NCBI GenBank assembly: GCA_030064795.1
Contig: JASJEI010000130.1
Span: 1 to 12,007, forward strand
Length of the DNA stretch: 12,007 nt
Origin: Pleurocapsa sp. MO_226.B13
GTDB lineage: Bacteria > Cyanobacteriota > Cyanobacteriia > Cyanobacteriales > Xenococcaceae
Direction: 5' to 3'
The notes beneath the pieces are model-generated. The model worked only from the letters and a program-made list of their open reading frames with translations. It had not been told where the DNA came from and ran no database searches. The position numbers were made by a program, and so were the translations under genes. Of this stretch, positions 1 through 12,007 are shown in pieces (within the stretch, counting starts at the first letter, position 1; every line of letters begins with the position of its first letter).

Positions 1-1
1 A

Positions 2-1447
2 AGAGAAGATCGATTCGGGAGTAATAGAGATAAAACAGCAGCAACAAACTTTAGAGTCAATCCAGTTTCAGACAGCAGGAGTAACGATTACTCAGACAGA
101 CAACGGAACATTTCTGACTCTGCCGACGGACTCGACTCTAAATCCTGGCTGGCAATGCCAGGGAAAACCTTGTCTGAAATTGGAGTCCTAAAGGATACCG
201 CTACGCATATAGATGATGAGCGAACTAGAAAACAGACTAATGACCGCTTTGGAGAAGTTAGCGCAGCAGTACAAGCAGGACATGACGAATCTATCCCACA
301 GATACAGCAAGGACATGAATCGGTTAGAGAAGCAGAACAAGCAGCTTCAACAGCAAGTGATGCACTTAAGCAAACAAGTGAAGGACTTGAACGGGCAAAT
401 CAAGAACTTGAATTTATCCAACAACAAACTGCTCTCAATCTTACAAGAATCAGGGTCGCTTTAAAGAAAAGAAGAGCCAAAGAACTGGATCGGTTTAAAA
501 CCGAGATTAATCTGGTTTCTTACGCTCGCAGTCAAGGTTATCGATATCTTAAAAGAGAATCAAGTCCAAATAGTGCGGTGCTGCGTCATAACTCAGGGGA
601 CAAAATAGTAGTTGCTACTGACAGATCCGGACACGGTATTTATTTTTCGGTCAGGGATAATGATGACAACGGTACGATTATTGATTTTGTCCAGAATCGC
701 AGTAATTTGAATTTAAGTGGGGTGAGAAAAGAGTTACGTCCGCATTTAGCCAAAAGCGATCGCTCTCTAATTGAGGATGTTGCCAAACCAATACCTATTA
801 ATCGAGATAAAATTTCTCTAATCAAAAAGTTTTCAGGGTTTTCCGCACCAACGAACAATTCTTATTTAGCTTCACGGGGGATTGGTAAATCTACCTTTGA
901 TGGCGATAGATTTACCAACCGAATCGCTACCGACAGCCAAGATCATGTGATTTTTCCCCACTATGACCGAGATGGGTTAACTGGATACTCGATTTTGAAT
1001 GTTAACTTTACTGGTTTTAGTAGGGGTGGAACTAAAGCTCTGTGGCAATCGAACCAGAATGAAGATGATACGAGATTGGTAATTACGGCTCGTGCTATTG
1101 ACGCACTGTCTTATCATCAACTGTTCCCCCACGAGCAGACTCGCTATATTTCTACAGAGGGTACGCCATCTAATTATCAAAAAGAGTTAATAGTAGAGGC
1201 GATGGCAGAGCTTAATAATACTGGAGATGAGATAATTATTGCTACAGATAATGATGAAGTGGGTGAGCGACTAGCTTCTACCCTCGTATCTTTAGCTCCT
1301 GATAGTACTCAGATTATGCGTCACTTGCCTGAAAACGCAGAGAGTTGGAATGAGGTGTTACAAAGACAGATTGATTTCAACAGGTATTTAGCCCAGCAGT
1401 CTAAGCAAAAATCAAAACAGAAAAAACGTAGTCAACTAGAACTTTAA
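2..1447 (+). CDS. Relaxase C-terminal part with DUF3991-TOPRIM module (5' end outside window)
   Basis: The frame is open from the window's second base to the TAA at 1445, so the ATG at 155 is probably internal and the protein begins upstream. The first ~155 codons are a charged, Gln/Glu-rich linker. Next comes DUF3991 at about 490-690 (motifs YARSQGYRYL, GDKIVVATD, GTIIDFVQNR). A TOPRIM fold follows at about 1076-1300, with IDALSYHQL and the acidic DND triplet (1247-1255). In this family the pair forms the primase-like C-terminus of mobilisation relaxases or a stand-alone protein; TOPRIM binds metal for nucleotidyl transfer. The glutamate expected before IDALS is absent: the sequence reads TARAIDALS where relatives usually have TES-IDALS. 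Two small frames nested in the linker support a relaxase origin. The HUH nuclease domain itself is not visible, so relaxase identity is inferred; the DUF3991-TOPRIM call is firm. Confidence 0.82.
   Translation, partial: REDRFGSNRDKTAATNFRVNPVSDSRSNDYSDRQRNISDSADGLDSKSWLAMPGKTLSEIGVLKDTATHIDDERTRKQTNDRFGEVSAAVQAGHDESIPQIQQGHESVREAEQAASTASDALKQTSEGLERANQELEFIQQQTALNLTRIRVALKKRRAKELDRFKTEINLVSYARSQGYRYLKRESSPNSAVLRHNSGDKIVVATDRSGHGIYFSVRDNDDNGTIIDFVQNRSNLNLSGVRKELRPHLAKSDRSLIEDVAKPIPINRDKISLIKKFSGFSAPTNNSYLASRGIGKSTFDGDRFTNRIATDSQDHVIFPHYDRDGLTGYSILNVNFTGFSRGGTKALWQSNQNEDDTRLVITARAIDALSYHQLFPHEQTRYISTEGTPSNYQKELIVEAMAELNNTGDEIIIATDNDEVGERLASTLVSLAPDSTQIMRHLPENAESWNEVLQRQIDFNRYLAQQSKQKSKQKKRSQLEL
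3..191 (+). CDS. C-terminal end of a MobB/MbeB-like relaxosome accessory protein (partial)
   Basis: A second frame, +1 relative to the relaxase frame, is open from base 3 to the TAA at 189-191. It reads as protein: a Gln-rich helix (EIKQQQQTLESI), a strand-like segment (GVTITQTDNGTFLTLP) and an ending NPGWQCQGKPCLKLES. From memory, the pattern of a short strand, LP, then GW..G.P..KL at the extreme C-terminus resembles the tails of MobB/MbeB accessory proteins, which assist the relaxase at oriT and are often encoded inside the mobA gene. The 5' part lies outside the window. It ends 21 bases before the MobD-like frame and shares its reading frame. The family call rests on this tail and on position, so it is tentative; an unrelated small plasmid protein is possible. 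Confidence 0.42.
   Translation, partial: EKIDSGVIEIKQQQQTLESIQFQTAGVTITQTDNGTFLTLPTDSTLNPGWQCQGKPCLKLES
213..464 (+). CDS. MobD/MbeD-like coiled-coil mobilisation protein nested in the relaxase gene
   Basis: An 83-residue protein beginning MMSELENRLMTALEKLAQQY. ColE1 MbeD/MobD-family proteins open in a very similar way (M-x-ELE-x-L-x-x-A-x-E-x-L-x-x-x-Y), so the start is well placed; the ATG at 216 is an equal alternative. The remainder is one long amphipathic helix with heptad-like spacing (QQVMHLSKQVKDLNGQIKNL), predicting a coiled coil and no membrane segment. MbeD-type proteins are small accessory factors needed for efficient plasmid mobilisation. The whole gene lies inside the relaxase-frame linker, shifted +1, which matches the ColE1 arrangement of mbeB and mbeD within mbeA. 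AAGGA at 192-196 is a weak, rather distant ribosome-binding candidate. The family call is from the N-terminal pattern and the context. Confidence 0.62.
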   Translation: MMSELENRLMTALEKLAQQYKQDMTNLSHRYSKDMNRLEKQNKQLQQQVMHLSKQVKDLNGQIKNLNLSNNKLLSILQESGSL

Positions 1448-1569
1448 TCGTAATGGTAGCGACATTGTAGGAAATAGACGTGTTTTTGAAAAGCCGAATC
1501 TACTAAAACAATAAATATCGCACTAATTTTTCTAAAATAAATAGATACGAGGTATTGAAATCAACAGGG

Positions 1570-1577
1570 GCGATCGC
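1570..1577. repeat. HIP1 octamer GCGATCGC (one of seven)
   Basis: Perfect GCGATCGC palindromes occur at 756-763, 1570-1577, 1972-1979, 2201-2208, 6454-6461, 7488-7495 and 11668-11675. HIP1 over-representation is a hallmark of many cyanobacterial genomes, so these sites support the taxonomic assignment. They fall in intact genes as well as in decayed ones. Confidence 0.9.
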
Positions 1578-1581
1578 AGAC

Positions 1582-2226
1582 ATGGTGGATAAAATTGCCT
1601 TCCAAAGTATTGGTGGAGTAGAAGGTATTTATTTGCCTAGTCAAGAAAACTCGGAATATGGAACTTTGCTTACTGATTATGGGATTTTTCCCGCCGAGGT
1701 ATCTAAGCGAATTATGAGAAAGTTTCCCAAAATTACGGGTCATCCCATATCTGAGTCATCAGGCCAAATACGATTAAGATTTCTAGCTTGGCTTATTGGT
1801 ATTGAAGAAGCTCCGTACTATCGTCTCGATCTGCGTTCAATTCACGATGAATTTCCCTCATGGATCTCAGGCGATAATTGGTTCTACCTCCAAGGAATAA
1901 TTACTGAACGCACTCCAGAAATAGTTACCTTAAAAATGCAGCGTAACCATTGGCAGGGTTATACAGAAGAAGCGATCGCTGCTTCAGTTAACTATCTAAA
2001 AATCCTTAATTGCCCTAGTAATGTAAGAGCATCACAATTTTGGAAATTTACAGTTAGTTTTAAAGAGGGTTTTTTACACTGTCTAACTGCTGAAAGGTTA
2101 GCCGATGCACGCAATACCAAGAAGATTTTAAAATCGTGGGCTACCGACCCATTACACGGCTCTCACTATGAAGAATTGTTAAATAGAACAGGTGTCAAAG
2201 GCGATCGCCGTATCGAAGTTACATGA
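1582..2226 (+). CDS. Unrecognised protein, 214 aa
   Basis: The frame is open from a TTG at 1555. I chose the ATG at 1582, which has AGGGG at 1566-1570 upstream, whereas the only purine-rich run before the TTG (GAGG, 1549-1552) is too close. No signal peptide or membrane segment is apparent. The sequence is rich in aromatic residues and shows strand-rich segments (NWFYLQGIITERTPEIVTL near the middle, FWKFTVSFKEGFLHCLTAERL near the end) that would suit a small beta-barrel or OB-like fold, but this is only an impression. I do not recognise the family. It lies about 130 bases after the mobilisation gene and 320 bases before the replication gene, co-oriented with both, so a plasmid-backbone role is a reasonable guess. 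Two HIP1 sites lie inside the gene and one more just before its ATG. Confidence 0.7.
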   Translation: MVDKIAFQSIGGVEGIYLPSQENSEYGTLLTDYGIFPAEVSKRIMRKFPKITGHPISESSGQIRLRFLAWLIGIEEAPYYRLDLRSIHDEFPSWISGDNWFYLQGIITERTPEIVTLKMQRNHWQGYTEEAIAASVNYLKILNCPSNVRASQFWKFTVSFKEGFLHCLTAERLADARNTKKILKSWATDPLHGSHYEELLNRTGVKGDRRIEVT

Positions 2227-2546
2227 GAAGAAGATCCTTGCATTGTCATTGCCTCACAAAAGGTTTACCGATTTGTATTAACTACACTAGCTCTAGAAGC
2301 GCAAAAACTAAGAGCATCTTAAAATTTAGACATTCAATCTCCACAGTTAGATAGATATGCCTTCTAGAGTTATTATTGTGGTTAGTTAAATACTAAGGAC
2401 GGACGCAAGTACGCGAGTCCAATCTCTCAAAGCAGTGCAATCTTGTTTGGCGACGAGACACTGAATTGAGTCAATTTCTTATGGATGGATACCCGTCCTT
2501 AAGTTTGATTGTACCGCGTTTGTCTGTCATCCTCAACTCTGAAAAC
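2227..2546 (+). promoter_or_regulatory. Leader region of the replication gene with small inverted repeats
   Basis: No convincing gene is seen here. The stretch carries CTCTAGAAG at 2291-2299 and its exact complement CTTCTAGAG at 2361-2369. It also has a short TTAGT/ACTAA dyad (2382-2396) and a 13-base palindrome at 2464-2476. Its position before a rep gene makes it a candidate for rep control or the origin, but I see no clear iteron array. The rep frame is technically open from a TTG at 2466. Confidence 0.4.
2464..2476. promoter_or_regulatory. Possible operator palindrome AATTGA-G-TCAATT
   Basis: This is a perfect 6-base dyad around a central G, 71 bases before the preferred rep start. It overlaps the TTG at 2466, which argues mildly against that TTG being the start. 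Short AT-rich dyads of this kind are typical repressor sites, but no binder is identified. Confidence 0.3.
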
Positions 2547-5500
2547 ATGGATACAGACCGGACAAAACTCAACCAGAACCCTCAAACCCCAGCAGCTCAA
2601 CAATTTAACCAAGTTGTTGACCATCACTTAACTGAGTGGAATAACAGTTGTGTAGACGAACAATTAACAACTCTTAACCTAAGAACTCTCATGGGAGCGA
2701 GCGCCTACGAATATTTACTTTACGGCTTGCCAGACTCGGAACGCCGTAACGATGGTAGGCTGAGAGATAAATGGTTAAATCGCTACGCTCATCTTGAGAA
2801 TGGTGGTTGGTGGGTTTCGGGATTAGACCCCCTCAATAACTGGCAACCGATGCAGTGGGGACGCTATAAGCCCGACAATCCTCGGATTATGGGTCACAAA
2901 AACAAACCCATCAAATACGAGTCTCCGCCTAATGTTGCCAACCGCGTCACCTACTTTAATGTTCCCGACCATATTTGGGACAGAGTAGCCAAACGCTACA
3001 AGATCAAGCGATATCACTCGCCTTTAGCCTTACGATTAACTGCCAAGCCCGCTGTCGCGGACGGGTGTGGGGTGTTGGGGGTAGGGTGTAGGAATAAACA
3101 CCATCCCAGTGACGGAGTATATTCTTTAACAGAAACAGGTTTGAGGCCATCTTTGCTCTTTTGTCTGAGAGATGGCATAAAACCCCCTTTTCTACAGCAG
3201 GTTCAGAATCCTCAATTTGACCCTACACCCCACACCCCAACCCCTAAACCCTATTGCTTCTGGTCGTGGGTACAGCAACATCCCGAAATCCCGATTATCC
3301 TCGCCGAAGGAGAAAAGAAAGCAGCTTGTTTGCTCTCACAAGGATTTGTAGCGCTCGCCCAGCCGGGGATCTGGAATGGACGAGTTGGCAAGAAGGGAAA
3401 AGAAAGATTACACCCCGACTTGATGCCAATGGCACAAAAGGGGCGTAAATTTACCATCCTCTTTGACTACGAAACCAAGCCCAAAACTCGCTATGCTATC
3501 TATCAAGCCACTCTCCGCACGGGGCAAGCAATTGAAGCTGCTGGTTGTGAATGTGACGTAGCCTCTTTACCAGGACCAGAAAAAGGCGTAGATGATTTTG
3601 TAGCTGCTCGTGGTGAGGACTCAGAATCATTATTGAGCGCGATTATCGATGACGCATACAGCTTAAAAGACTACCGACGGGTCTGTTTGACTAAAAAACG
3701 GGGACTCAGCGACAAATATCCCCCCAATGTCAAACTCAATACTCGCTTTCTAAGTAATGCTGTGAGCCTACCGACAACGGGGCTGGTGGTTCTCTGGAGT
3801 GGTATGGGAACGGGAAAAACCGAACTGATGGCAAGATTCCGCGAGTTGTATCCTACTATGCGCTTTTTGAATCTCGGTCATCGGGTAAATCTGCTTAAAA
3901 ACCTCTCTAAACGGTTAAATACGGAGATGTATTCGGCGTTATCTCAAGGAGATTTACGCTCGGCACTCGCTCTTTCCATTACCGTTGATAGTTTATATAA
4001 ACTACAAACCCAACTTAATGAATACGGCTGCGTGTTTATCGACGAAGCCTGTCAATATTTGGCACACCTCCTTCACAGTCAAACCTGTCGGTCACATCGG
4101 GCAGAAATTTTAGAGGTTCTAGAATACATTATCCGTAAAGCCAAACTGGTGGTGCTAGCCGATGCCCACATGGATGATGTTACCGTCGATTTCTTCCGTG
4201 CTATGCGCCCTGAGGGAGAAGTTCCCTTTATTATTAAGAATGATTACAAGGTAACTGGCAGAACGGTTTATTTCTACGAAGGTATTGATAACAGTGCCTT
4301 GGTTTCCAAAATCTTTACTGCCCTGATGCTGGGATTAAAGATCATGGTGGTTAGTGACTCTAAGAAGTTTATCAAGAAACTAGAAGCTGCCATGACGGTT
4401 AAGGTTTTTGACAACCAGCCACTTTTTGGTAAAGACGGTCAATTAGACAGCGAATCTGATAACAAACTACGCATCTGGTCGATACACGCGGAAAATAGCG
4501 GTAGTGAAGAGAATGTGGCATTTATCAAGGATATTTCCTCAGAAGTTAAAAATGTCGATGTTTTGCTGGCTTCTCCCAGTTTAGGTACGGGGGTTGATAT
4601 TCCCAATTATCATTTTGATGCCGTTTTCGGCGCATTCCATGCGGTGAGCCAAACAGCTACTGAATGCGCCCAATCCCTCCACCGCTATCGTCCCCAAGTC
4701 CCCTTACACATCTGGGTCGCTCCTTGTCCTCCCTTTGGGTACAAAGAAACTAATTCCGCCAAGATTAAGGAGCGGATGCTAGAACTTAACGAGATGACCG
4801 CATTTTTAATTCGCATTGACCCCGAAACTGGCATTCGAGGTGCGGAAAAAGACTGGGCGTTAGATGCTTATTGTGAAATTGAAGCTAACCGCAACCGTTC
4901 GATTAACAATTTACGGGACGATCTACACTCCCTGTTAGGCGAGATGGGGTATAACCTAGTTACCGCCGAAAAGCAAGCAGATACCCAAGTCGCGATGGAA
5001 TTATTTGAAGCTGGTCAATATTTAGACACCGCTCACCAACTAGCAGTAGTTCGGGCTGCTAACATCAGCAGTAGCGAATATTTAAGCCGTCAGTCAAAAG
5101 ACTACCTCCAACCAGAAGAAATTGTTGAATGCGAAAAATATCGGATTTCTAGAGATTACGGAATGCCCGTAACTGAAGAATTGGTCAAGCGGGATGCTGG
5201 GGGCTACCTGATCGGTCAAATAATTGCCTTAGAATCCCTGTTATTACCCTCAGAAGGAGAAATTATCGACCCGACAACAGGTAAAAAATATCCCGCACCA
5301 CCCCAGATTGTAGCTCAGAGGGATTTAAGAGAACGGGATAATTTACCCCTGTGTATGGATTGGCATAATTATTCTGGTTTATGGTTAGCCCGTCATATTT
5401 TAGGTTTACCCAAGATACTATCCCGATTGCTGGCAGGAGAAGCTCTTTGTGCCACTGACCCCGATGTGGTGCAGATGACTGAGACTGCTGTGATGGCTCG

Positions 5501-6092
5501 CGCCCAGATTAAAGCTATTCTTAACCTCACCATTCCCCAGAATTGTCAACCTATGTGGCTACTAGGAATATTGATAGGACAACTGGGGTTAAAGATGATT
5601 GGTCGGAAAAAGGGCAGACGGGGACAACAGGTTCGATATTACAGCTTGTCAGTCGAAGAATTAGCCTTCGCCGTAGAAGTTTTGCAATACCGAGAGCGAC
5701 AGCGAATTGAAAAAGCCGAAAGGGAACGGGAAATCCAAGAACAAAATCGCCTCCATCAGGCTATGATGCAGTCGCAGTATGGGATCGATCCACCAGCACC
5801 GACCGTAACCACTCCCCCCCTAAAAAGGGATATTTATCCATATGAGGGGGTGGTGGATACGGGAGAAAACGATCCTAAAAATGCCGCTCATAGTTCTAAT
5901 GAACCATTAACTGACACTCTAGAAAAGCTTAAACCGTGTCTGGAATTAATAGAACGAACAATTAATTTGGGTTTATCGGTAATTAAAGAGATTGTGATTG
6001 AGCTGCTGGCAAACAATGGCATACAAACCCATATTCTCAGTTGGCTACTACAATCTAAGAAACTGAGTATCGTGTATATGGGGGCTGGATAA
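2547..6092 (+). CDS. Plasmid replication protein, CyRepA1 family
   Basis: About 1181 residues from the ATG at 2547. The frame extends back to a TTG at 2466 with another ATG at 2481, but the extra residues look unlike the family start. The N-terminal region has YEYLLYG, RRNDGRLRDKW and ENGGWWVSGLDP. A DUF3854 (TOPRIM-like) segment follows, with WVQQHPEIPIILAEGEKKA (Glu254), FDYETK (Asp307) and KGVDDF. A helicase-like ATPase follows: Walker A GMGTGKT at 419-425, GHRVNLL, Walker B FIDEA around Asp499, ADAH, SLGTGVDIP near 678 and QSLHRYRP near 709. The C-terminal third is less conserved, with a charged coiled coil (about 1050-1075). This order is that of cyanobacterial CyRepA1, thought to initiate plasmid replication by primase-like and helicase-like activities. 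Residues ~172-233 are an unusual insertion encoded by a palindromic element. The stop overlaps the next ATG by one base. Confidence 0.9.
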   Translation: MDTDRTKLNQNPQTPAAQQFNQVVDHHLTEWNNSCVDEQLTTLNLRTLMGASAYEYLLYGLPDSERRNDGRLRDKWLNRYAHLENGGWWVSGLDPLNNWQPMQWGRYKPDNPRIMGHKNKPIKYESPPNVANRVTYFNVPDHIWDRVAKRYKIKRYHSPLALRLTAKPAVADGCGVLGVGCRNKHHPSDGVYSLTETGLRPSLLFCLRDGIKPPFLQQVQNPQFDPTPHTPTPKPYCFWSWVQQHPEIPIILAEGEKKAACLLSQGFVALAQPGIWNGRVGKKGKERLHPDLMPMAQKGRKFTILFDYETKPKTRYAIYQATLRTGQAIEAAGCECDVASLPGPEKGVDDFVAARGEDSESLLSAIIDDAYSLKDYRRVCLTKKRGLSDKYPPNVKLNTRFLSNAVSLPTTGLVVLWSGMGTGKTELMARFRELYPTMRFLNLGHRVNLLKNLSKRLNTEMYSALSQGDLRSALALSITVDSLYKLQTQLNEYGCVFIDEACQYLAHLLHSQTCRSHRAEILEVLEYIIRKAKLVVLADAHMDDVTVDFFRAMRPEGEVPFIIKNDYKVTGRTVYFYEGIDNSALVSKIFTALMLGLKIMVVSDSKKFIKKLEAAMTVKVFDNQPLFGKDGQLDSESDNKLRIWSIHAENSGSEENVAFIKDISSEVKNVDVLLASPSLGTGVDIPNYHFDAVFGAFHAVSQTATECAQSLHRYRPQVPLHIWVAPCPPFGYKETNSAKIKERMLELNEMTAFLIRIDPETGIRGAEKDWALDAYCEIEANRNRSINNLRDDLHSLLGEMGYNLVTAEKQADTQVAMELFEAGQYLDTAHQLAVVRAANISSSEYLSRQSKDYLQPEEIVECEKYRISRDYGMPVTEELVKRDAGGYLIGQIIALESLLLPSEGEIIDPTTGKKYPAPPQIVAQRDLRERDNLPLCMDWHNYSGLWLARHILGLPKILSRLLAGEALCATDPDVVQMTETAVMARAQIKAILNLTIPQNCQPMWLLGILIGQLGLKMIGRKKGRRGQQVRYYSLSVEELAFAVEVLQYRERQRIEKAEREREIQEQNRLHQAMMQSQYGIDPPAPTVTTPPLKRDIYPYEGVVDTGENDPKNAAHSSNEPLTDTLEKLKPCLELIERTINLGLSVIKEIVIELLANNGIQTHILSWLLQSKKLSIVYMGAG
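3063..3237. repeat. Palindromic G/C-rich element inserted in frame in the rep gene
   Basis: The left arm at 3063-3079 (a 13-base run GGGTGTGGGGTGT, then TGGG) pairs with the right arm at 3221-3237, 16 of 17 positions. A second register also pairs: GGGTGTAGG at 3084-3092 with CCTACACCC at 3222-3230. The 141-base interior contains a smaller hairpin, GCCATCT/AGATGGC, at about 3146-3176. Translation gives low-complexity residues (GVLGVG, TPHTPTPK) between the conserved N-terminal region and the FWSWVQ start of DUF3854, where relatives have only a short link. G-rich heptamer-like repeats of this style are common in filamentous cyanobacteria. Confidence 0.7.
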
Positions 6093-6593
6093 TGGGTAAA
6101 GCTTCTCGAAGGAAGAAACTTTGAAGAGTATTAGCCGATCTAAAAAAGCTAGATAGTACATCAGCCTCGCCCAACACACCAAAGCCAGGACAAGGCTCGT
6201 TGGTTATGAGTCTCTTGGACGAGCATCAAAAAATTACTGCTAAGGGGAGGGGAATTTTCTCTTTTACCTCTGACAGTCAGCCAGCCTATGTTCCTTTAAG
6301 CAATCTTCGCTCATCACAAACCCAGGCGATTTCTCTTGTTAACAGTTACGATCCTGAAACCGAATTTCTAGCCAGTAATTTTTCTCTAGTTTCCCACCTT
6401 TTAGACAGCCAAACAATCATCAAGTGGCACCCTTAGAAGTTAATCTCTGAAGAGCGATCGCCTTAGAGCGAGTGTTGTCTTCAAACGAAGGTTCTGGCTC
6501 AGTTTTTCAGGGTCAACTCTTTATCCAAGATTTAGCTCTACTTTAGATGAACAAATGCAACCAAACCAGAATCAGCTTTGGGATTTAGCTTAA
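6092..6593 (+). pseudogene. Broken gene translationally coupled to the replication gene
   Basis: The rep stop and a new ATG overlap as TAATG (6090-6094). The reading begins MGKASRRKKL and meets TGA at 6122. The same frame continues at once as RVLADLKKL and on through [13 protein letters not shown] to a TAG at 6434. Shifting frame near 6400-6427 gives [11 protein letters not shown] (6448), RAIALERVLSS and SVFQGQLFIQDL. A second shift near 6531-6546 gives STLDEQMQPNQNQLWDLA and a final TAA at 6591. Both TGA codons sit where CGA (Arg) would extend a natural sequence (KKL-R-RV, VNL-R-RA). Joined, the pieces make about 165 residues. I do not recognise the family. A 78-residue product from the ATG at 6200 to 6436 could still be made. 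Coupling to rep suggests an original replication-linked role; this is inference. Confidence 0.6.
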
Positions 6594-6875
6594 TTATTGA
6601 CGATATTGTGACGTATTCATAGCAAATAGAAGCAAGTTTAGGGCTTGTTCGGGCTTAATTTTTGTTTAAGTCCCGATACTCTCAATGCTATCGATATTTT
6701 GGCCAAACTTAGATTATTGCTTAATGGGACTGCTACTCCATCCCTAGTTCTTCCCGATTGACTCCTAGCTTGGAATCAAAGTGACAGGTAAAAGCCGAAG
6801 CGATAACGGCGCAGTTTATCTGGATTCCTATCACCTGAATATCGAGGAAAAAAGAAGCGATTAAATATAGTTCTG
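6594..6875 (+). other. Decayed, coding-like intergenic stretch before nrdA
   Basis: No intact gene is present. Short protein-like stretches remain in different frames: LIIDDIVTYS then QIEASLGLVRA split by a TAG; SPDTLNAIDILAKLRLLL up to a TGA at 6759; and LGIKVTGKSRSDNGAVYLD ending in TAA at 6862. Together they look like a gene broken by stops and shifts, of unknown family. An imperfect hairpin (TCGGGCTTAA with TTAAGTCCCGA, one bulged base) lies at 6649-6676 without a following T-run. The nrdA promoter must lie here or further upstream, but I cannot place it. Confidence 0.4.
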
Positions 6876-9134
6876 ATGCAACAGACCCGAGGGATAACAA
6901 CAGCTGCCACCGCCAAGGGGGCCAAGGTTCAGGTCATCAGGCGGGATGGTTCAAAGGCTCCCCTTAATCTGGACCAGATTCGCTCTGTTGTCGATTGGGC
7001 CTGTGCTGGATTTGATGCCAATCCCATTACTCTAGAAGCTAGACTAACAAACCGGTTGCGAAATGGGGTCACCACTAGAGAGATTCAGGCTCACCTCATT
7101 AACTGCGCTTTGGAGATGTGTAGTCCATCCGAACCAGACTGGCGCTATGTGGCAGGGCGACTACAGCTCTGGAATTGGTCTCAGGAGATCCTGGTCAGCC
7201 GTGGGGCTCAGAGGAGCGACTACTCCAGAACAGTTCGGTCAAAGGTTGAGTCTAACCAATACGACAGGAGGCTCCTGACTTATTCTGCAGATGAATTGTT
7301 CGAAGCGGGGTCTTGGATTAATCCTGATTGGGACACCAATTATGATTATGCTGGTGCCGTCCTCCTAACCAATCGGTATCTTTTACCCGATGAGTTGCCC
7401 CAGGAAGCATTTTTAACTTGCGCCCTACTCCTCGCTTCCATTGAAGTCCCAGCTCGTCGGATGATTTGGGCGAGGAGATTTTACGAAGCGATCGCTCAAA
7501 GAAAGATTTCTCTATCTACCCCGCTCCTGGCTAACCTGAGAATTCCCAACGGTTCGTTATCCTCGTGTTTCATCCTCAGCATGGACGACAATCTGGAGAG
7601 TATCTTTGACACCATTAAGGACGTGGCGAGAATCTCGAAAAATGGAGGTGGGGTGGGAGTAAATGTCAGCCGTGTTCGTGCAACTGGCAGTTGGGTGATG
7701 GGTAAACCCAATACCTCTGGAGGTGTTATTCCTTGGATTAAGCTACTCAACGATACTGCCCTCGCTGTCCATCAAGGAGGTCGCCGACCGGGTGCTGTCA
7801 CCGTTAGTTTGGATGTTTGGCATCTGGATGTCCCCTACTTCCTGGAGATGCAAGCAGAGAACGGCGAGCAGCGACGAAAAGCTTACGACATATTCCCCCA
7901 GCTAGTGCTGGCTGATGAGTTTATGCGTCGGGTGATGGCTAAAGAGGAATGGACATTAGTCGATCCCTACGAAGTGCGCATAAAGTTGGGAATCGAGTTG
8001 GCACAACTGTGGGGGGAGGAGTTCGAAAAAGCCTATAAGCGAATAGAACAGAACCTGGGACGAGAGATTGCTCTCTATAAGACCGTCAACGCCCGCGAGC
8101 TATTCAAGACGATCATGCGTTCGCAGGTAGAAACCGGAATGCCCTACCTCTGGTTCAAAGATGCTGCCAATCGCGCCAATCCTAACAAGCATCAAGGGTA
8201 TATTCCCGGAGGAAATCTCTGCCAAGAAAATTGGTCTAATGTTTTCCCTGGTATAGAAGCTCACACCTGCAATCTGCTATCCCTCAATTTAGCCAATATT
8301 AATGAGCCTGAAGTTCGAGGGCTGTGCTCTCTAGCAGTGCGGCTCCTGGACAACACCATCGACTTAACCTACCCCCCCTTTGAGACTAGCCAGACTCACA
8401 AGGAGAAATACCGCACGATTGGTGTTGGTGTCATGGGACTGGCTGACTGGCTGGCTAAGCGTCAGCTCTCTTACAGCGATTTGCCAGAAATCAGCCACTT
8501 ATTTGAAAACATTGGCTACTACTGTACCCATGCCTCGATGGAGTTAGCAAAGGAACGAGGGGCTTATCCAGCGTTTTCAGGTAGTGAGTGGAGTCAGGGG
8601 AAGCTGATTGGTGCCAAGCCCGTTGAGTGGTTTGAGCAGCACGCACAAGATAAGGAACGCTGGCTACAACTGAGCTCAGACATCAAGGAACACGGAATCC
8701 GCAACTCCCATATTACAGCGATTGCTCCCAACACCTCCTCTTCTCTGGTTCAGGGCTGTACGGCTAGCGTTCTGCCCGCCTACAGTCGCTTCTTTTACGA
8801 CAAGTGGGCAAAGGGAGTTGTTCCGATTGCACCGCCATTCATCAAAGGGTGCTTCTGGTTTTACCAAGAAAACCAAACCCTAGAGCCGAAGAAAATTGTT
8901 CGGGCTGTGGCAACGATTCAGCAGTGGATTGATACAGGGATCTCCATGGAGTTGCTGTTTAATCTTAACCAAGGGGTCTATTTTCCCGAACAACCAGAAC
9001 GCTCCCTCAAGGCTAAAGATATCTTTGAGACCTTAGTCATGGCTTGGCAAGAAGGATGTAAAGCAATTTATTATGTGCGGCTCGTGCAGAGAGATAGCTT
9101 CCAAGAAGAATCCTGTACTTCCTGTGCCAATTAA
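6876..9134 (+). CDS. nrdA: Ribonucleoside-diphosphate reductase, class I, alpha subunit
   Basis: 752 residues, close to the family's usual length. It makes deoxynucleotides by reducing ribonucleoside diphosphates in the cytoplasm and needs a radical-generating beta subunit (NrdB). An N-terminal ATP cone (about residues 17-105, VIRRDGSKAPLNLDQI) should allow dATP/ATP activity control. The catalytic barrel shows the redox cysteine Cys231 (SSCF) and NGGGVGVNVSRVR. The active-site trio Asn447-Cys449-Glu451 (NLCQE) follows, then the partner cysteine Cys465 (HTCNL) and APNTSSSLVQG. Tyr732-Tyr733 (AIYYVR) match the radical-transfer tyrosines. The C-terminal CTSC (747-750) is the swinging-arm pair that receives electrons from thioredoxin or glutaredoxin. 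No intein is present and all key residues are retained, so it should be active. The ATG at 6876 is the only good start, with no close ribosome-binding motif. No nrdB is in the window. It looks richer in G+C than its neighbours, suggesting separate acquisition. Confidence 0.96.
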   Translation: MQQTRGITTAATAKGAKVQVIRRDGSKAPLNLDQIRSVVDWACAGFDANPITLEARLTNRLRNGVTTREIQAHLINCALEMCSPSEPDWRYVAGRLQLWNWSQEILVSRGAQRSDYSRTVRSKVESNQYDRRLLTYSADELFEAGSWINPDWDTNYDYAGAVLLTNRYLLPDELPQEAFLTCALLLASIEVPARRMIWARRFYEAIAQRKISLSTPLLANLRIPNGSLSSCFILSMDDNLESIFDTIKDVARISKNGGGVGVNVSRVRATGSWVMGKPNTSGGVIPWIKLLNDTALAVHQGGRRPGAVTVSLDVWHLDVPYFLEMQAENGEQRRKAYDIFPQLVLADEFMRRVMAKEEWTLVDPYEVRIKLGIELAQLWGEEFEKAYKRIEQNLGREIALYKTVNARELFKTIMRSQVETGMPYLWFKDAANRANPNKHQGYIPGGNLCQENWSNVFPGIEAHTCNLLSLNLANINEPEVRGLCSLAVRLLDNTIDLTYPPFETSQTHKEKYRTIGVGVMGLADWLAKRQLSYSDLPEISHLFENIGYYCTHASMELAKERGAYPAFSGSEWSQGKLIGAKPVEWFEQHAQDKERWLQLSSDIKEHGIRNSHITAIAPNTSSSLVQGCTASVLPAYSRFFYDKWAKGVVPIAPPFIKGCFWFYQENQTLEPKKIVRAVATIQQWIDTGISMELLFNLNQGVYFPEQPERSLKAKDIFETLVMAWQEGCKAIYYVRLVQRDSFQEESCTSCAN

Positions 9135-9148
9135 TGGAATGTGACTGA

Positions 9149-9705
9149 AAAGATAAGAGCGAAGAAATTTGTCCCCCGGCGGGGCAAGAGCCCATTCATT
9201 GGCGATTACTGACCACTCATGATGTGATGTCATTTGAACAAGCACTACAAGTTATCGAGTGGTATAAATGGCGATGGCGGATTGAACAATTGTTTGCCAC
9301 CCTCAAAAAAGCTGGATTAAATCTCGAAGCTAGTCAGTTAGAATCTCCCAGAGCGATTTCTTTAGCTAACTGTCCTCGCTTTATCGATTGCGGTGCGAAC
9401 TTTTCAAATGATTGAAGGAAGAGATAATTGTGAATTACCTGCTTCTGTTGCTTTTGATGATGAACAACAACAATGCTTATCCAAAATTGCACCTTCCTAA
9501 GCTTAGACGCATTTAAAGTTGGATCGAGTACATCGAATTTTCAATTGTTTCAGCCGATTTAATCGTCAGGTTAAGTGCGAAATAGCTTATCAAGGAAAGA
9601 CCCCAAAACAACAAAACCCCTATCCTCCTGCTTCTTTACCCTGGGCTACTTGGTTGATTGCTCCATAAGGTGGATGGTCTGGGGTTCGACCGAGATACTT
9701 GTAAA
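9149..9705 (+). pseudogene. IS4-family transposase remnant
   Basis: The surviving reading starts near CPPAGQEPIHWRLLTTHDV and continues through WYKWRWRIEQLFATLKKAG, which contains the IS4 signature Y-2-R-3-E-6-K including the last catalytic glutamate. The N-terminal part with both catalytic aspartates is missing; the fragment begins right after the nrdA stop. That frame ends in a TGA at 9415, but a shift near 9375-9392 restores the family sequence (AVRTFQMIEGRDN, ELPASVAFDDEQQQCL, KIAPS). After 90 extra bases (9498-9587) it resumes as QGKTPKQQNPYPP and PWATWLIAP, a TAA, then GGWSG. The last ~35 residues and the element's right end are missing. It is dead as a transposase. No terminal inverted repeats or target duplication can be identified. 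Confidence 0.85.
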
Positions 9706-9790
9706 TTCGTGCCACATCTCCCTGTAACCATTGCTGGGTAAAGCTTTGAACTTTTATGATTGATTGCGAGCGCTTAAATCGTAGATACTC
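9683..9790 (-). pseudogene. Minus-strand coding fragment cut off at the IS4 remnant
   Basis: Read on the minus strand from about 9790 down, this gives EYLRFKRSQSIIK, VQSFTQQWLQ and GDVARIYKYLGRTPD with no stop. The upstream limit is a TAA at about 9791-9793. Beyond 9683 the DNA is better explained as the plus-strand IS4 sequence GGWSG. The fragment resembles, in opposite orientation, the + strand sequence just before the recombinase gene (ADVARFNMYLGATP), with an 11-base exact match (GATGTGGCACG). It is probably the 5' part of a second copy of the recombinase-associated gene, interrupted by the IS4 element. Confidence 0.45.
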
Positions 9791-9816
9791 TTAAGCTTGA
9801 AACCTTTATGATGTAT
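9741..9816 (+). repeat. Imperfect direct repeat, two copies 52 bases apart
   Basis: Copy one is at 9741-9764 and copy two at 9793-9816. Both read AAGCTT, then GAA, then TTTATGAT, with a one-base offset and a few mismatches between them. They lie in the gene-free stretch (about 9706-10028) after the IS4 remnant. Function unknown. Confidence 0.5.
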
Positions 9817-9870
9817 AGTTTTAAGTCGATTTATCAAAAGTGTAATTAACCCTCTGGGCTTTCTCGAAAT

Positions 9871-9973
9871 ACATTAGCAGACATTAAAAATGGCACTTAT
9901 GAAGAACATTAGCAGACGTAAACCCTAGTTTTTCGTTGATTGATTTCTGCTAATACAACTTATCAGACATAAA
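9871..9973. repeat. Cluster of ATTAGCAGAC-type motifs before the recombinase
   Basis: ACATTAGCAGAC is found twice exactly: 9871-9882 (followed by ATTAAA) and 9906-9917 (followed by GTAAA). An inverted partial copy, CTGCTAAT, is at 9947-9954, and a degenerate direct copy, TTATCAGACATAAA, at 9960-9973. The direct copies are about 35 and 54 bases apart. Their place directly upstream of a tyrosine recombinase gene fits arm-type or core binding sites of that enzyme, or an operator in a divergent promoter region. No binding has been shown. Confidence 0.6.
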
Positions 9974-10090
9974 GAGCCTGTTCAAAGGTCTGTTTCTGAA
10001 AACCATATATATCAGTGCTTTTAAGCCGATGTGGCACGTTTCAACATGTATCTCGGCGCGACCCCTCATTCAATGTCAGCTAGACAGAAT
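9974..10090 (+). pseudogene. Damaged N-terminal extension of the recombinase gene
   Basis: The frame one base ahead of the recombinase ORF reads EPVQRS, QCF, TAA (10022-10024), ADVARFNMYLGATPHSMSARQ, then stops at 10091. It matches the minus-strand fragment at 9683-9790 (RSQS..., QWLQGDVARIYKYLGRTP) residue for residue in places. MSARQ runs straight into QLDRIKEEL of the recombinase frame. The natural reading is that the recombinase originally began further upstream and has lost its N-terminus to a stop codon and a one-base frameshift near 10079-10085. Confidence 0.45.
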
Positions 10091-11336
10091 TAAAGAGGAA
10101 CTACAAGGGTTTGAAGATTTTTGTCGCCTAAATCTTGGAAATGAAGAAGCAACAGTAGATTTCTATTCAGGTTATATTCAGAGGCTATTGGGCTGGTTAT
10201 ATCTTCAAGAAAGAGATTTGGATAAAGTATCTATTACAAATTTGATTCCTGTTATCGATTGTAATTTGAAAATTGGGGATTTTGATGATGATTTTGATCG
10301 ATATGCTCTGGCAAAAGAAAAATGTAAGTTAGATTCAAAAAAAGCTGCTAAAGAGGTCAGGAATTTTCTCTCGTTATTTTTTAAGATGTATGGTGTAGTT
10401 AGCTTTGATTACCAAGAAAAACATATAGTATCTTTAATTACTTTAGCTAAATATCTGTATAAAGATCTAACTGACAAAGAAGATGTAGAGAATTACGAAG
10501 ATCTAGTAATTATTCAAAGTCTCAGAAATTTTAGAAGAAAACTTGAGAAGAATAGTTCTTGTTGCTCAAACATTAAAAATCTAAAATTTACTTGGGATGA
10601 GCTACTAATAATTAGAGAACAGCTTAAGTTTGAAGCTTCTTTAAAATATTCTTATTCACAATTGAAAAATGGACGTACTCATCGAGACTCAAGACCTAAG
10701 TCAGCCATAGCAACTAGCAAAATGAGATTTTTAATCTTCTGCTTTCTGACAATTATTCCCCCAGACCGAGCCAGAACTATTAGAGAATTACGTATTGGGG
10801 AAACTCTAAAATATGGATTAAAAACTAAAGAAGGATTTGTTCCTAAAGAAAAATTATCAAATTCAGCCCAGGCAAAATACTATATTCACTTGTTAGAGAA
10901 AGATTATAAAACAGGTAAGATATATGGAGAGTTTTGGGGCGAACTACCTAATTGTCAATTTAAAGATGATACTAAATTTTATGACTATCTAAATGATTGG
11001 ATTTATGGTGGTTGGAGAGAAGTATTACTTAGAAATGAAACTCATAACTATTGTTTTTGCCAATCTAGAGGAGCAAAACAACATAATAAGGAGACTTTTT
11101 ATGGTTTAGTAGCTAACACTTTTGAAAATAAAACAGGTATCAAAATGGGAACACATGAATTCAGAGATATTTTTTGTACTTATTTAGAAGAAGTTAATGC
11201 TTCTCGTGAAGTGAGAAGATCGGCTGCTTATTGGATGAAACATAGTGAGGAAATAGCTAGAAAGATTTATACAGTGGTAAACTTACAAGCCAAACTTGCA
11301 CCAGCATTTGAATTTATGAATCGATTGAATTTTTAG
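10029..11336 (+). CDS. Divergent tyrosine recombinase / integrase
   Basis: 435 residues from the ATG at 10029, the only ATG before the core-binding domain. The first ~17 residues are unlikely to be native because the same DNA encodes family-like sequence in another frame. An N-terminal SAM-like core-binding domain (FEDFCRLNLGNEEATVDFY, then RLLGWLYLQERDLDKVS) is followed by a catalytic domain. Visible catalytic residues are Arg247 (PPDRARTIREL), the box HEFR (His376, Arg379), His405 (WMKHSEE) and the nucleophile Tyr414 (KIYT). Tyr414 lies nine residues after His405, as in standard family members. The enzyme would cut and rejoin DNA at short sites through a phosphotyrosine link; excision, integration or dimer resolution are all possible. 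The gene is AT-rich, sits after a repeat cluster, and is 14 bases before a small DNA-binding-type gene, suggesting an operon. Confidence 0.85.
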   Translation: MWHVSTCISARPLIQCQLDRIKEELQGFEDFCRLNLGNEEATVDFYSGYIQRLLGWLYLQERDLDKVSITNLIPVIDCNLKIGDFDDDFDRYALAKEKCKLDSKKAAKEVRNFLSLFFKMYGVVSFDYQEKHIVSLITLAKYLYKDLTDKEDVENYEDLVIIQSLRNFRRKLEKNSSCCSNIKNLKFTWDELLIIREQLKFEASLKYSYSQLKNGRTHRDSRPKSAIATSKMRFLIFCFLTIIPPDRARTIRELRIGETLKYGLKTKEGFVPKEKLSNSAQAKYYIHLLEKDYKTGKIYGEFWGELPNCQFKDDTKFYDYLNDWIYGGWREVLLRNETHNYCFCQSRGAKQHNKETFYGLVANTFENKTGIKMGTHEFRDIFCTYLEEVNASREVRRSAAYWMKHSEEIARKIYTVVNLQAKLAPAFEFMNRLNF

Positions 11337-11350
11337 CTACAATACTTCTG

Positions 11351-11605
11351 ATGATAGATTCGCTATATATGACTGACAATTCATCAGAAGATAGTTCAAA
11401 CTTAGACGATCGCAGAAAAGGAAAAAAGGGTGTTAGGGGTAAACCTCTGTATCATAATGAAGTAAAAAAACGATACAACTTTACCTTGACTCCTACTGCT
11501 AGAGAGATTATGAATAGACACGCTATTAGTCAGGGATTATCTGCTTCTGACTGGTTGGAAAAGCTTTTGAGAATGGTGGGTGGCGAACCTAATGGTACAG
11601 AATAA
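11351..11605 (+). CDS. Small ribbon-helix-helix-like protein
   Basis: 84 residues from the ATG at 11351; an ATG at 11369 would give 78. The first ~35 residues are polar and probably disordered (DDRRKGKKGVRGK, basic). The rest has the form of a ribbon-helix-helix: a strand RYNFTLTP, a helix TAREIMNRHAISQG, a turn GLSAS and a second helix DWLEKLLRMV. Such proteins dimerise and bind DNA through the strand, acting as repressors or recombination accessory factors. The gene begins 14 bases after the recombinase stop on the same strand, so it is likely co-transcribed and may control the recombinase or its directionality. That role is inference; the fold call rests on the sequence pattern. Confidence 0.72.
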   Translation: MIDSLYMTDNSSEDSSNLDDRRKGKKGVRGKPLYHNEVKKRYNFTLTPTAREIMNRHAISQGLSASDWLEKLLRMVGGEPNGTE

Positions 11606-11664
11606 TATTAGAAATCTGTTTGATTTTCTTTGGCGATCACCACTTTGCGATAAGATGAAACTAA

Positions 11665-12007
11665 GCAGCGATCGCCCTAGCTCATGCTGAAGGCTTATCA
11701 ATCAGAACAATAGCTAAAGTCACTGGCCCCGAGTTCGAGTCGTATTCATCAACTGTTACACACTGATGAAGCAGATCGAATTCCTGACTGGCTGAACGAT
11801 CTATCAGCATCTTTGAGCGAAATAGAATTTGAATCAGATGATCGGCAGAAACGGGAACTATCTGAATTACAACAAGAGTTAGCAGATGAAGGAGAAGTGC
11901 TGCGTTGGTGTATCGAATGGTTGGAAAAATTAGCTCGTGGAGAAAAAGTGGTAGTCAATCTTCGTGCTTCAATTGACCCCAAAACAGCTTATGCAGGTAT
12001 TGATCGC
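11665..12007 (+). pseudogene. Frameshifted helix-turn-helix gene, continuing past the window
   Basis: From 11665 one frame reads IALAHAEGLSIRTIAKVTG, a typical helix-turn-helix first half, then continues wrongly as PEFESYSS to a stop. Dropping one base near 11731 (the G after CCCC) restores SSSRIHQLLHTDEADRIPDW, which completes the recognition helix. The restored frame stays open to the window end through a Glu-rich helical region (SELQQELADEGEVLRWCIEW) and NLRASIDPKTAYAGIDR. There is no good start codon: the first frame is preceded by a TAA at 11662 and the second by a TAG at 11711. The gene therefore appears 5'-truncated as well as shifted, although a sequencing error could explain the single-base shift. 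The ~60 bases before it hold nothing I can identify. Family unknown beyond the HTH pattern. Confidence 0.6.

Follow-up and report, generated by a model that had tools for sequence, protein, structure and literature searches.

Can one stretch of DNA serve at the same time as part of a relaxase gene and as two further mobilisation genes? The question is raised by the first 464 bases of the window, by which we mean the whole stretch of 12,007 nucleotides analysed here (contig JASJEI010000130.1 of the cyanobacterium Pleurocapsa sp. MO_226.B13, positions 1 to 12,007). A long frame at 2..1447 (+ strand, frame 2, stop codon at 1445-1447) codes for the C-terminal 481 amino acids of a MobA-type relaxase fused to a DUF3991-TOPRIM module, its 5′ end lying beyond the window edge. 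Two genes are nested within it on the + strand in frame 3, which is +1 relative to this host frame: the end of a MobB/MbeB-like protein at 3..191 (C-terminal 62 amino acids, 62 codons at 3-188, stop codon TAA at 189-191) and a complete MobD/MbeD-like coiled coil of 83 amino acids at 213..464 (codons 213-461, stop codon at 462-464), for which homology offers the second ATG at 216 as an alternative start giving 82 amino acids. The initial annotation, made from the letters alone, had described bases 2-464 as open in two frames. The long frame is indeed unbroken, but the nested frame is closed at 189-212, at the mobB-mobD junction, an interruption that two consecutive genes would require. Judged from the sequence, the dual coding is real and the locus is a ColE1-type mobilisation module whose relaxase is extended by a TOPRIM-primase module; very probably the window holds the 3′ part of such a module on a CyRepA1-type cyanobacterial plasmid, with a MobA that carries a C-terminal DnaG/T7-type primase.

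Relatives were collected from one genome scan (three of its four loci), from plasmid searches and from one order-level search in which 13 of 291 genomes had a match at 1e-30. The set retained for the tests comprises 16 sequences, namely the window and L001, L002, L003, L005, L006, L013, L014, L016-L022 and L025. Copies of L001-L003, L005 and L006 (L010-L012, L015, L023, L026), partial loci (L024, L027-L032) and loci with no such relaxase at the match (L004, L009) were excluded, as were L007 (Citrobacter) and L008 (Polaromonas), which have nested open reading frames (ORFs) of the same kind and offset and are too divergent for the codon test. Both mobB and mobD are nested, in the same +1 frame, in 15 of 15 cyanobacterial relatives (16 of 16 with the window). 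In L001, a contig of a Pleurocapsa metagenome-assembled genome, the host frame is open for 839 codons and gives an ORF of 837 amino acids when counted from the first start listed; it contains the relaxase motif HTHTASNRVELHF and encloses mobB at 4681-5187 and mobD at 5188-5439 in its +1 frame. A MobC gene (Pfam MobC, 4e-12) lies directly upstream of this relaxase, and mobC is annotated in L006, L007 and L008; the corresponding position in the present case falls beyond the window. Residue 1 of the window long frame aligns to residue 356 of the L001 protein (P0001, 827 amino acids) at 66% identity, the best identity to the window protein being 69% among the 120 matches listed.

The long frame had been expected to reach relaxase motifs if extended upstream. 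Tested in the relatives, the same frame leads to a full relaxase motif (H-x-H...R-V-E-L-H-F) in 14 of 15. The exception, L002, retains only the motif end RVELHF because its frame begins late, after another ORF; the contig of L018 ends before the start of its relaxase protein. The relatives' relaxase matches NCBIfam MbeA over residues 2-505 (E 1.6e-40, below the model cut-off). The glutamate of motif III is kept in 122 and the last histidine in 124 of 125 aligned rows, and the motif reads H-x6-E-L-H, without the HEN triad. By these motifs the host relaxase would work like MbeA and is kin to it, yet it is not HEN in the strict sense. Viral contigs yielded no relative; phage records gave two hits in the relaxase part, covering 25% and 41% of the query, both on 5.3-kb records.

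Selection on the two frames was assessed with reciprocal null models. In the first, the long protein was fixed, synonymous codons were resampled (20,000 samples) and stops were counted in the nested frame. In the window, finding none has a probability of 0.045 over the 62 codons of the MobB fragment and of 0.0004 over MobD; in the 15 relatives it is at most 0.0065 for each full MobB and 0.0001-0.072 for MobD. In the second, the nested proteins were fixed and stops were counted in the host frame, where 3.9 + 7.2 are expected in the window overlap and none is observed. Expected numbers run from about 11 (window) to 22 per sequence, and per segment from 3.9 to 12.5 (MobB) and from 6.6 to 9.6 (MobD), with none observed in 32 of 32 segments of the 16 sequences; the third frame of the same segments holds 4-25 stops. 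Codon periodicity is inverted in the overlap. Conservation there is strongest at the host wobble position in seven of eight within-group comparisons (the exception is MobD of L019/L020), and variation is greatest in all eight at the host first position, where the nested frame has its wobble; in single-coding control stretches it is the wobble position that varies most in 8/8. For the Pleurocapsa-like group the C-terminal control is preferred, the N-terminal codon control (amino acid difference 0.457) being probably inflated by the truncated L002. This inversion marks the nested genes as genuine and as the dominant object of selection. Given the host frame, between-group similarity in the nested frame exceeds the null by 75 standard deviations (SD) for MobB and 51 for MobD (third frame, 17 and 15); given the nested frame, similarity in the host frame exceeds it by 19 SD (MobB) and 27 SD (MobD; third frame, 10 and 7). 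These SD figures ignore shared ancestry, an effect of which the third frame serves as an estimate. The dual-frame codon constraint anticipated across homologues is present and is the stronger in the nested frame: on these statistics the nested genes rule in the overlap, where selection on the host frame mainly preserves its openness.

The identity of MobD is specific, as the window protein matches Pfam PF04899 (MbeD_MobD) with an E value of 4.9e-11 (43.0 bits, gathering cut-off 21.6) and the next-best Pfam family with only 7e-4. It also matches NCBIfam plas_excl_MbeD (E 3.9e-12, 46.3 bits, below the curated cut-off of 60) and is 78-59% identical to MobD of L001, L003, L002 and L005; MobD of Citrobacter L007 reaches only 15.8 bits against PF04899. 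A Shine-Dalgarno-like site lies within 18 nt of the mobD start in 9 of the 16 sequences (the start in L006 was set by hand). The 62-amino-acid MobB tail of the window has no Pfam match. Over 61 amino acids it is 79% identical to residues 108-168 of L001 MobB, a 168-amino-acid nested ORF, and it carries the conserved motif W-x-C-x-G-x-P-C-x-K, whose P-C-x-K cysteine part is found in 16/16 MobB tails. Profile searches suggested for both small proteins succeeded for MobD and missed MbeB_N for MobB (L008 MobB scores 12.1 bits, cut-off 22), though profile-profile comparison (hhalign) aligns the MobB relatives with annotated MbeB proteins (99.1%, E 3.7e-19, 134 columns). The best 19-residue hydropathy is 1.44-2.41 among 15 full-length MobB proteins, which suggests a membrane segment, clear in only part of them. 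In the 16 cyanobacterial sequences a C-terminal cysteine pair follows the hydrophobic segment; a disulphide between these cysteines is possible if the tail is periplasmic. Relatives, PF04899 and codon statistics together bear out the initial annotation of a MobB-like tail and a complete MobD-like gene nested out of frame, and its description as a compact dual-coding mobilisation module holds, with both nested genes in 15/15 relatives and selection on both frames.

The mobB-mobD junction of the window contains a 24-nt dispersed repeat (186..209, unstranded) absent from four of four aligned relatives. By virtue of its length it preserves the host frame, to which it adds eight residues; with it, mobB ends at a new stop codon, one codon further on, and mobD lies 21-24 bases away. 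Of 10 genomes, 7 contain its 20-nt core, in 258 copies with at most one mismatch (0 for the reversed control), and 18 exact copies were found in six genomes re-queried. Some copies elsewhere seem flanked by short duplications (e.g., L049, L052). The repeat resembles very small mobile repeats that have been described from cyanobacteria. At the same junction of Rippkaea L006 (15054-15260), between nested mobB and mobD, the relaxase frame reads through 4.6 tandem copies of a 45-bp unit. Insertions may survive at this junction because it is the sole spot of the overlap with one coding frame.

Downstream of the overlap, the host frame leads into DUF3991-TOPRIM, as first described. This DnaG/T7-gp4-like primase module (482..1444, + strand) comprises DUF3991 at 863-1051, just below its gathering score, and Toprim_2 at 1094-1360 (1.4e-12). 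It has the primase core fold, and the predicted fold matches that of active primases. Alignment columns and sequence place the catalytic TOPRIM glutamate at 1088..1090 (+ strand), where the codon is GCT (Ala), and the two retained aspartate codons at 1247-1249 and 1253-1255 (+ strand). The catalytic residues are thus A/D/D in the window and K/G/D in L001, against E/D/D in 76 of 125 aligned rows. With the glutamate lost, primase activity is doubtful in the window copy, whose module is probably inactive as a primase; the term relaxase-primase gene fits this locus by descent, and doubtfully by activity. Among the 123 rows placed on a tree, TOPRIM is E/D/D in 76, degenerate in 18 and the module absent in 29, although a few of these 29 proteins may have been truncated where their contigs stop. 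Of the 43 rows in the clade closest to the window, 28 lack the module, 12 have it degenerate and 3 intact; the sister clade has E/D/D in 67 of 73 rows. The two closest rows to the window on the primase tree, P0003 and P0008, keep E/D/D. Identity to the nearest stand-alone DUF3991-TOPRIM proteins is 40-43%. Five such plasmid relatives were examined: three are typed as conjugative and one sits two genes from TrbI/VirB10. Relaxase and primase trees interleave fused and unfused rows, on weak or long branches, a pattern compatible with one fusion event or with several. P0038 and P0065 have the relaxase domain of the mostly intact clade and a C-terminus nearer to that of the window (61-62%, TARAIDALS) than the C-termini of their clade mates are (about 50-52%), possibly reflecting module exchange across the nested region.

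Three other explanations of these observations deserve weighing. That the nested ORFs are open by chance, through the codon bias and helical make-up of the linker, is highly improbable. Linkers rich in Gln, Lys and Glu do favour open +1 frames, a frame open over the length of MobD is not in itself unusual for some relatives (P up to 0.07) and coiled-coil profiles match many families. Against chance stand the inverted codon periodicity, a nested-frame similarity 51-75 SD above a host-preserving null (15-17 SD for the third frame) and the homology to annotated MbeB and MbeD. The converse idea, that in the window the relaxase-TOPRIM gene is a pseudogene whose remnant frame encloses nested genes surviving alone, is unlikely. 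In its favour are the lost TOPRIM glutamate, the inserted repeat and the low host-frame identity in the overlap; yet no stop breaks the 481 codons of the frame, although some 11 would be expected in the overlap, and the 24-nt insertion keeps it in phase.

The remaining alternative concerns the primase module, which could be an inert C-terminal tail needed for relaxase folding, loading or coupling-protein recognition, the nested genes being the sole functional additions. We regard this as plausible but rather doubtful. In its favour, the degenerate (18) and missing (29) modules among the 123 rows cluster in the clade closest to the window, the TOPRIM glutamate is lacking in the window as in L001, and the nested genes persist in 3/3 TOPRIM-less DNA loci (L002, L003, L013). 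Against it stand the 76 rows with E/D/D, mostly in the sister clade, the E/D/D of P0003 and P0008, the conjugative setting of most of the five stand-alone relatives and a predicted fold like that of active primases.

Several observations weigh against a ColE1-type module in the window. It begins about 355 codons into the gene, so that its own relaxase domain is deduced from relatives. The relaxase part of the structure model is weak (mean predicted local distance difference test score 58.4, predicted template modelling score 0.34), no relaxase fold is among the matches listed for it, and this part of the model was not used as evidence. Pfam PF04837 (MbeB_N) is not listed for MobB of L001, L005, L006 or L007, and the window mobD start has no Shine-Dalgarno-like site within 18 nt. 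Finally, within groups the host-frame residues of the overlap vary like those of the third frame (0.416 vs 0.405 in the Pleurocapsa-like group), so host selection is evident for openness and between-group residue class and not strongly for residue identity.

Under the ColE1-type reading, with functions assigned by analogy to ColE1, RSF1010 and conjugative primases, the module would consist of mobC followed by mobA, whose +1 frame contains both mobB and mobD. After nicking oriT, the relaxase would remain bound to the strand and pass with it through the conjugation system of a helper. The MobA stretch over mobB-mobD, predicted with low confidence, is probably a flexible linker whose chief requirement is an open frame. 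MobB, with its hydrophobic, probably membrane-spanning segment and conserved-cysteine tail, and the coiled coil MobD would each be translated from a ribosome site of its own, and would attach the relaxosome to the membrane or the coupling protein. The primase module would formerly have primed complementary-strand synthesis after transfer.

The layout is that of the ColE1-type module (mbeC, and mbeA with nested mbeB and mbeD) in gene order, in the +1 offset of both nested genes, in the abutment of the mobB end on the mobD start and in the homology of MobA, MobB and MobD. Plasmid pSNC3-Kan, in a passage of PMC9282650, has mobA at 1659-3212 with mobB (2347-2865) and mobD (2872-3105) 'internally encoded'. 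Across six ColE1-like or related plasmids the offset is +1 for mobB in 6/6 and for mobD in the 5/5 annotated. However, in the five with mobD the relaxase ends 18-35 amino acids past it, whereas that of the window runs on for 327 amino acids into the primase module. Five of the six carry H-x6-E-[L]-N as motif III, in contrast to the cyanobacterial H-x6-E-L-H (the sixth, Aeromonas L038, has a motif of the H..H-x-H kind), and the cysteine pair of cyanobacterial MobB was not seen in the E. coli MbeB examined. RSF1010/IncQ plasmids encode MobA-RepB with a nested mobB, and thus share a relaxase fused to a primase and a small mob gene within the relaxase gene. The ColE1 and RSF1010 logic invoked by the initial annotation stands for the ColE1 layout, which here gains a C-terminal domain and no new logic. 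Relaxase fusions of the RepB′ family, discussed in part of PMC5862659, involve an archaeo-eukaryotic primase, unlike the DnaG/TOPRIM type of the cyanobacterial module, in which MobD is nested too. Toprim primases of conjugative elements such as TraC1 of RP4 and SogL (in a section of PMC5512222) and the stand-alone DUF3991-TOPRIM proteins likewise belong to plasmids with type IV secretion system-type transfer, but the cyanobacterial module is fused to a mobilisable-plasmid relaxase with nested genes. In Cardinium plasmids (L039, 2149-4068) the same DUF3991-TOPRIM module is joined to a relaxase of another family, named MobV in the record.

Nested genes are not listed in records L005-L008, whose gene table is stated to be incomplete. 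In a search of 5.8 billion proteins the host protein had at least 723 matches, not all fusions, and MobB at least 7, all on contigs of at most 3,030 bases; no MobD match was returned by this search, which requires shared words and hence gives lower bounds. PLSDB record L033 shows the reverse of the cyanobacterial records, listing nested MbeB and MbeD and not the enclosing MobA (table stated to be incomplete). No description of a relaxase-DUF3991-TOPRIM with nested mob genes, and no paper pairing DUF3991 with a relaxase, was found in the searches made of open-licence papers, which does not imply absence from print.

Further along the window, a CyRepA1-family plasmid replication protein (2466..6092, + strand; NCBIfam NF042913, E 2.3e-96, above cut-off) points to plasmid DNA. 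On the same plasmid-like stretch, 6876-9134 encodes a ribonucleotide reductase large subunit with an ATP cone (Pfam 1.4e-133). The ORF at 1555-2226 has no significant Pfam match and is also found 3′ of the relaxase in L001, L002 and L003 (MVDKIAFQSIGGVEGIYLPS or near it), which makes it, on this comparison, a conserved neighbour of the relaxase. A transposase DDE fragment (9224-9415) and a weak phage-integrase match below cut-off (10029-11336) complete the list.

The module is a largely unannotated variant of the ColE1 mobilisation module, and it extends that layout into cyanobacteria. It has the same dual coding beside a different, TOPRIM-type primase, in parallel to RSF1010; its nested genes escape annotation, and with it selection on overlapping genes can be measured in a natural, well-controlled setting. 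We tentatively propose, as a possibility that falls somewhat short of probable, that many cyanobacterial plasmids carry this three-genes-in-one module unannotated: the relaxase would bring a DnaG-type primase into the recipient, and the primase would later decay or be lost, while mobB and mobD, dominant in selection, would help to keep the linker, and hence the long frame, open.
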